From Atribacterota bacterium (lineage in GTDB: Bacteria; Atribacterota; Atribacteria; Atribacterales; Caldatribacteriaceae), in contig JBDIWM010000021.1 of assembly GCA_039638595.1 (NCBI GenBank), positions 1 to 36,799 of the forward strand: a stretch of 36,799 bases of DNA, in the 5' to 3' direction. The notes under the pieces were generated by a model. It was given only the letters and a program-made list of their open reading frames with translations. It was not told where the DNA came from and made no database searches. Positions 4,087 to 5,051 of the stretch are shown one piece after another; the stretch's first letter is position 1; each line of letters begins with the position of its first letter. The position numbers were made by a program, and so were the translations under genes.

Positions 4087-4287
4087 CCCTGGTGTTTTAA
4101 TCATTCCATGAAGTTTTTCAAGTTGTCAATCTGATTGAGCTACTCATTGCTTTTACTTTTGCTGAGTAGGGAATACCAAACTCGAACATGAGGCGCAAAA
4201 GGAGACACAATTCGTTAGAAGGGTGTGTCGATATGGGGTATGGGGACGTCGTCTCTAAAAATTTTTTAAAATTTCCTTAATACCCCC

Positions 4288-4316
4288 TTGACAATTTTTT
4301 CTCCTTCTTGTATTCT
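4288..4316 (+). promoter_or_regulatory. Consensus sigma70-type promoter for the structured RNA
   Basis: TTGACA at 4288-4293, exactly 17 bp, then TATTCT at 4311-4316. This is among the strongest promoter matches in the window, yet no open reading frame with a ribosome site follows for about 750 bp. Start of transcription is expected near 4323. Confidence 0.75.
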
Positions 4317-4322
4317 ATACTT

Positions 4323-4648
4323 ACCACGGGTTCTGGGAAACTGGAATTCGGAGAGTGAAACGAAGAAGAGAGGTATCTTGAAAGAGAAAACTCTCGGTTC
4401 TTCCTGAAAGGGAAGAAGAAAGTTCACTCTGAAGCACCAGGTTGAAGTGGAGAAATTCTAATCAGCTTGGTGAGATAAAGGAAGAAGGTTTGCTGGGACC
4501 TGTGGTGCAGGAAACCGTGGATTCTGAGGAATCGGAAGGTTCAACGAACTGAAGGGGTAAAACCCTGATGTTCCTAAGGGGGCCAGAGAGCTCGGGTCTC
4601 TGAAGAAAAAAGTTGAACAATGAGGGTTCGTTGGAATCCACGGTTTTT
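4323..4648 (+). ncRNA. Candidate structured non-coding RNA (about 325 nt), family unknown
   Basis: The stretch lies between a consensus promoter and a hairpin with a T-run, and it is packed with complementary segments. Domain 1: AGAGTGAA 4352-4359 pairs with TTCACTCT 4423-4430 and encloses the hairpins AGAG/CTCT (4383-4394) and TTCTTCC/GGAAGAA (4398-4417). Domain 2: GCACCAGGT 4434-4442 pairs with ACCT-GT-GGTGC 4498-4508, enclosing CAGC/GCTG (4463-4495). Domain 3: ACCGTGGATTC 4514-4524 pairs perfectly with GAATCCACGGT 4634-4644, enclosing AGGG/CCCT (4553-4566) and CAGAGA/TCTCTG (4584-4602). CAACGAAC 4542-4549 can pair with GTTCGTTG 4626-4633, while the overlapping GTTCAAC 4539-4545 can pair with GTTGAAC 4612-4618; these are mutually exclusive. 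I looked for conserved elements of RNase P RNA, tmRNA, SRP RNA, T-box and common riboswitches and saw none. Minus-strand and short plus-strand ORFs here look spurious. Confidence 0.65.
4634..4648 (+). terminator. 3' arm and T-run ending the structured RNA
   Basis: The 3' arm of the 11-bp stem (partner 4514-4524) runs directly into TTTTT at 4644-4648; a second T-run lies at 4659-4663. The stem spans a 109-nt loop domain, so this is not a compact hairpin, but a GC-rich stem followed by a U-tract fits RNA release here. Confidence 0.5.
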
Positions 4649-4978
4649 CATTTGTCGGTTTTTCCTCCATCCTGCAGGCTTTTATTCTATCTCCCCCTGT
4701 AGTTTGGTCTTCGTTTTGCATTTCAAATCATCTTGCTCATTTCCTGCCATGGCTTCTTTCCGCTTTGGTATTTTCTGGAACATTTATTTACTTTGAATGG
4801 ATTTTCCTTTCTCAGATCGTGCTTTGTTTGTGCTCTATGGTTCACCTGGATGTTTCTTGTTTTTTTCGTTTTTGATTACGACAAGGTGTTCGGGTAAAAA
4901 AGCGCTCATTCGGCGGGAGGGTAAAGGTTATGAACACCCCCTTTTGGATTTATTTAGAATGAATAGCAATACGAAATG
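4649..4978. other. Gene-free stretch, nothing recognised
   Basis: About 330 bases between the end of the structured RNA and the pst control region. A 61-codon frame at 4797-4982 has no ribosome site and an unconvincing product. I see no tRNA, repeat or strong hairpin. Confidence 0.5.
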
Positions 4979-5015
4979 TTAAAGTTTTTTAACCATTGGT
5001 TAAAAATCGTTTGAC
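4979..5015 (+). promoter_or_regulatory. PHO-box-like tandem repeat upstream of pstS
   Basis: Four TT-A/T-A-like hexamers recur every 10-11 bp: TTAAAG 4979, TTAACC 4989, TTAAAA 5000, TTTGAC 5010. Direct repeats at helical spacing just upstream of the -35 are how PhoP/PhoB sites look in Bacillus (TTAACA, 11 bp) and E. coli. The same DNA also contains a perfect inverted repeat, TTTTTAACC-ATT-GGTTAAAAA (4986-5006), which would suit a dimeric repressor instead. Position just ahead of phosphate-import genes favours the PHO-box reading. Confidence 0.55.
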
Positions 5016-5021
5016 CCCTTC

Positions 5022-5051
5022 GTGACAGAATAAAGCCAGGTACTTTATAAT
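5022..5051 (+). promoter_or_regulatory. pst operon promoter
   Basis: GTGACA (5022-5027), 18 bp, TATAAT (5046-5051). Transcription would start near 5058, giving a very short leader that begins at the ribosome site GGAGG (5060-5064) of pstS. The weak -35 beside the tandem repeat fits an activator-dependent promoter. Confidence 0.65.

Follow-up and report, generated by a model that had tools for sequence, protein, structure and literature searches.

The window, a stretch of 36,799 nucleotides from an Atribacterota assembly (GCA_039638595.1, contig JBDIWM010000021.1), carries on its forward strand a sigma-70-type promoter, TTGACA (4288-4293) and TATTCT (4311-4316) with a spacing of 17, from which transcription is predicted to start at about 4323. 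An A/T-tract (4258-4287) lies 5' of the -35 box and resembles an UP element, a role that it may have. The predicted transcript runs from about 4323 to 4649 on the same strand and consists of two tandem modules in one RNA. The downstream module ends straight into the T-run TTTTC (4645-4649), which would complete a terminator. The next gene, pstS, is on the same strand 412 nt downstream, and there is a promoter-like site at 5022-5051 that belongs to pstS itself. An earlier note on this DNA had proposed the promoter, a structured RNA and a stem leading into the T-run, and all of these held up. The fold of 4323-4650 has a free energy of -139.6 kcal/mol and a z of -9.8, with none of 100 shuffles equally stable, and the z values are -9.0 for module 1 and -5.9 for module 2.

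Each module is enclosed by what we call the frame, which is a 14-bp stem made of the module's own ends, a G.G mismatch, five more pairs and then usually a purine loop. In both window modules the 5' side starts RCC...GG..UCYGRGRAAYYGGAA and the 3' side ends GGUUYGYUGGRAYC...GGU. Module 1 (4323-4506) and module 2 (4514-4644) score 110.2 and 90.1 bits to R1, a covariance model restricted to the frame and built from 19 sequences, although both belong to that seed and these are the scores of training members. In module 1, the 5' arm of the frame (4323-4346) comprises the stem strand 4323-4336, the mismatched G at 4337, the second stem strand 4338-4342 and GGAA at 4343-4346; the 3' arm is 4484-4506, and the closing stem is 4323-4336/4493-4506. 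Frame covariation and the fold are the basis for these arms, as they are for module 2, where the 5' arm (4514-4537) has the stem strand 4514-4527, the mismatched G at 4528, the strand 4529-4533 and GGAA at 4534-4537, the 3' arm is 4622-4644, and the closing stem is 4514-4527/4631-4644. Inside module 1 there is a class I interior (4347-4483), in which helices 2, 4 and 5 covary. Its fold has P2 (4347-4349 with about 4481-4483), P3 (4352-4359/4423-4430, enclosing hairpins at about 4368-4395 and 4398-4417) and a P4 hairpin (4435-4471). Module 2 has a class II interior (4539-4618) with P2 (4539-4545/4612-4618) and hairpins at 4546-4573 and about 4579-4600, which are helices 2-4 of the class II alignment. 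In the tandem pairs (the window, L097 and L098) the sequences of the two closing stems differ, so each arm should pair only inside its own module.

This anatomy replaces the three domains of the earlier note with two modules. Of its closing stems, 4352-4359/4423-4430 exists, but as the inner helix P3 of module 1. Another, 4434-4442/4498-4508, competes with the closing stem of module 1, which covaries, and was given up. The 11-bp stem 4514-4524/4634-4644 is real but incomplete, as it is part of the 14-bp closing stem of module 2. The note had also seen two mutually exclusive pairings, as in switching RNAs. One of them, 4539-4545/4612-4618, is kept in 11 of 11 homologs with 7 of 7 pairs in each. 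In the alternative, 4542-4549/4626-4633, not one pair has changed on both sides, and shuffled partners pair at least as well, so a switch is not supported.

We collected about 80 related elements. The initial collection combined a DNA search of 61 genomes with a pattern search for the 3' arm of the frame and gave dozens of elements; the 3' arm pattern had 67 matches, compared with 6 for the reversed pattern. When the 3' arm plus T-run was searched over 84,980 species genomes, 26 stretches matched, nearly all of them from Candidatus Atribacteria, Caldatribacterium or uncultured bins. A match in the cyanobacterium Phormidium was set aside as chance, with about one such match expected. R1, which was built without Dictyoglomota and whose E-values are rough, found 1-9 copies in each of the 25 genomes sampled from the order to which the window belongs (Candidatus Atribacteria/Caldatribacterium), no copies beyond marginal scores in 25 genomes from other Atribacterota, and no credible match in about 145 other genomes. 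Weak R1 matches outside the order look like chance, and so does a match in G200:C36, which has a poor fold and neither promoter nor T-run.

Two complete genomes have nine (G017) and three (G014) copies. The window's genome has at least one further full element, on contig C61, and contig C17 carries the beginning of another at its edge. There, the contig breaks off within a second copy of module 1 (G000:C17 1-63, L118), which is identical to the window between about -65 and +60 and shares the A/T-tract. Copy numbers are minima, because assemblies break at these repeats and many of the genomes are drafts. Rfam gave nothing at gathering or relaxed thresholds except a weak match of the frame to Dictyoglomi-1, and no match within the window reached gathering level. 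We found no description of the family in the literature on Atribacterota non-coding RNAs. From these sequence comparisons we conclude that the window RNA is a member of a previously undescribed multi-copy RNA family in one bacterial order. The earlier note had suggested a new RNA class that has its own promoter and terminator, and this is borne out: covarying homologs with promoters and T-runs occur throughout the sampled order, in 25 of 25 genomes, with compensatory changes in both frame and interiors.

The frame is the part that all members share. Across 89 distinct rows, 97.9% of the frame cells are paired, and 16 of the 19 pairs have changes on both sides. Double-change cells number 164, against 39.6 in shuffles, and controls in which the pairing was slid collapse. 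The mismatch sits between A-U pairs and is G.G in 75 of 78 cases. The mean fold z is -7.5 (79 elements). All helices of the class I interiors covary (31 of 42 pairs in total), and so do those of class II, where 14 of 34 pairs in the 11-genome alignment have changes on both sides. Interiors fall into clusters of 50, 10, 5, 4 and 2 members plus singletons. Identity between clusters, in alignments that are sequence-based, is 0.40-0.56, where shuffled sequences average 0.48. Judged on such alignments, at least five interior types unrelated in sequence, plus singletons, are held inside a shared frame. Strong divergence, instead of swapping, may also account for the interior classes. We considered whether the GGAGG of class I acts as an anti-Shine-Dalgarno sequence, but discarded the idea, since a covarying helix takes up part of this motif.

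The layout seen in the window recurs among the 81 elements with enough flank, which include tandem members; in tandem pairs, downstream modules need no promoter and upstream modules need no T-run. A TTGACA/TATAAT promoter with at least 9 of 12 matches is present in 75 of the 81, compared with 12 of 81 in shuffles, and the -10 box ends 6-7 nt 5' of the frame in 63. At least five of the first eight bases 3' of the frame are T in 76 elements. Just upstream of the -35 box, at -56 to -49, AT content averages 79% across elements. Comparing the neighbouring genes among copies, we found no recurring family and no recurring transposase, and the downstream gene is on the same strand in 32 cases and on the opposite strand in 38, which is random. 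In the same genus, the counterpart of the window element adjoins a URO-D gene, not pstS. With unrelated neighbours, random orientation and this counterpart, we regard the element as a stand-alone RNA gene, not as part of a leader.

Within a species, paralogs are 98-100% identical, and they are 96% identical to the orthologs at the same loci in a second species. There are three such shared loci in the two species; the upstream flanks identify two of them (76% and 91%), and neighbouring genes the third. Near-identical paralogs at conserved loci thus evolve in concert, as read mainly from one three-copy set in two species. In several paralog pairs the duplication reaches from near the promoter to just past the T-run, with upstream ends that vary. 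As far as their sequences tell, the copies behave as a gene family and not as a transposon.

The weak Rfam match deserves some attention. Weinberg et al. (2010, PMC2864571) list Dictyoglomi-1 (RF01703) as a non-coding RNA from a phylum for which genome sequences were few, and marked cis-regulation by it as uncertain. The RF01703 model scores the window at 16.8 bits (E 0.13), against a gathering cut-off of 150 bits; it aligns to module 2 through the frame only and skips the interior. Among 195 relatives it gave no match over the cut-off. In the other direction, R1 matches two Dictyoglomi-1 loci of Dictyoglomota at 27.0 and 25.9 bits (E 6e-7 and 1.3e-6) and misses the typical 236-nt members. Dictyoglomi-1 frames score 6-12 with a hand-chosen alignment that has one bulge, the null maximum is 10.9, and at most 6 of 400,000 random closing stems are as high. 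Like our family, Dictyoglomi-1 is stand-alone, with 1-3 copies per Dictyoglomota genome, and has the same layout of promoter, frame and T-run; its frame has the ACAGG stem, the AA-G.G-AA/UU context and a short second stem. It differs in a bulged base in the frame stem and in its interiors, which show no relation to ours and are mostly longer (the whole RNA has about 180-245 nt). Because the frame is similar and the layout is the same, Dictyoglomi-1 is probably related; the two are probably relatives and not one family.

We give about even chances to the following explanation: these are abundant trans-acting structured RNAs of a multi-copy family, in which the shared frame serves as the dock for a common putative partner. 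From the sequence, the transcript would start with the frame's first nucleotide and terminate in the T-run past its last one, so that the two ends of the RNA would be locked in the 19-pair frame with its G.G mismatch. The frame would be the docking site for a putative protein or RNP partner common to all members and would also shield the RNA ends. The interiors would have a binding or regulatory task specific to each class, and strong promoters, several copies and homogenised paralogs would give a high dose. In the window, a class I and a class II module would be joined in one transcript. The odd features of the frame, the G.G between A-U pairs and the purine loop, are conserved while the interiors are free, and this is the pattern expected of a shared docking site. 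Common descent plus end protection alone could also have conserved the frame. In Y RNAs bound by Ro60/Rsr, a terminal stem is likewise a shared protein handle and the interior is variable; this is an analogy of working only, as the sequence motif is unlike and the TROVE protein is absent from these genomes. A bolder form of the docking explanation, which we hold tentatively and think somewhat less probable, is that the frame is the handle of a putative RNP common to Atribacterota and Dictyoglomota, with interchangeable and sometimes tandem interiors, and with paralogs kept identical by gene conversion like ribosomal RNA genes.

The main rival is a family of base-pairing regulatory sRNAs, in which the frame protects the ends and terminates while interior loops pair with mRNAs. 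Stand-alone units with promoter and intrinsic terminator, and several types in each genome, would suit it. However, the interiors are helix-rich and strongly covarying, in which they differ from most antisense sRNAs, near-identical paralogs point to dose and not to diversity of targets, and Hfq was found in none of the 51 genomes searched, which led us to reject an Hfq-dependent form. We consider this rival unlikely, but not negligible. Copies that are several, near-identical within a genome and in both orientations, with contig ends falling within them, could instead suggest a mobile or repeat element that is moved through the genome by its terminal stem acting as an inverted repeat. We think this improbable, since loci are conserved between species with concerted evolution there, upstream duplication ends vary, no transposase or other neighbour recurs, covariation extends past the ends, and phage, plasmid and viral-contig collections contain no match to the family.

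A sponge or scaffold RNA of the CsrA or Ro60 type is less probable still. Within Atribacterota, CsrA occurs only in this order (14 of 25 genomes, compared with 0 of 25 outside it), but it does not track the family, as it is missing from one genus that has 3-9 copies, and there is no enrichment of unpaired GGA motifs (1.28 per element vs 1.20 in shuffles). A CsrB/RsmY-type sponge therefore failed on both co-occurrence and GGA excess, and a Ro60 scaffold meets the absence of Ro60/TROVE from all 51 genomes. The earlier note had also considered a regulatory leader of pstS. The position of pstS as next gene on the same strand invites this, but the URO-D counterpart, the lack of a conserved downstream gene or orientation and the promoter-like site of pstS itself refute a cis-acting leader, attenuator or riboswitch, and we assign it very little probability. 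Its other suggestion, a diverged housekeeping RNA such as 6S, is refuted by separate genes for 6S, SRP and RNase P RNA elsewhere in the same genome and keeps hardly any probability; only size and stability spoke for it. 6S RNA is similar in length (about 160-190 nt) and has paired ends, but our family is multi-copy with varying interiors and without a central open bubble, and RF00013 did not match 4100-5000 even at E up to 5.

Few bacterial non-coding RNAs of unknown function are large, structured and multi-copy, and unusual roles are suspected for several of those. The family described here is universal in the sampled genomes of one bacterial order and probably marks an RNA-based machine or regulator. 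Its clean conserved frame is usable as bait for the partner, the comparative data from about 80 members make a functional hunt feasible, and the orphan Dictyoglomi-1 RNA gains its first probable relatives.

There are two minor observations on the surroundings of copies. Arsenic-type genes are near three of them (L114, L118 and L179: ACR3 with ArsR; an ArsP permease; an ArsR regulator), which may be chance, as other copies have unrelated neighbours. Adjoining a class II copy at L011 is a perfect, roughly 50-nt inverted repeat (1357-1406 of G002:C29) that scored as a miRNA-like hairpin on both strands in the Rfam search and is probably a separate small palindrome.
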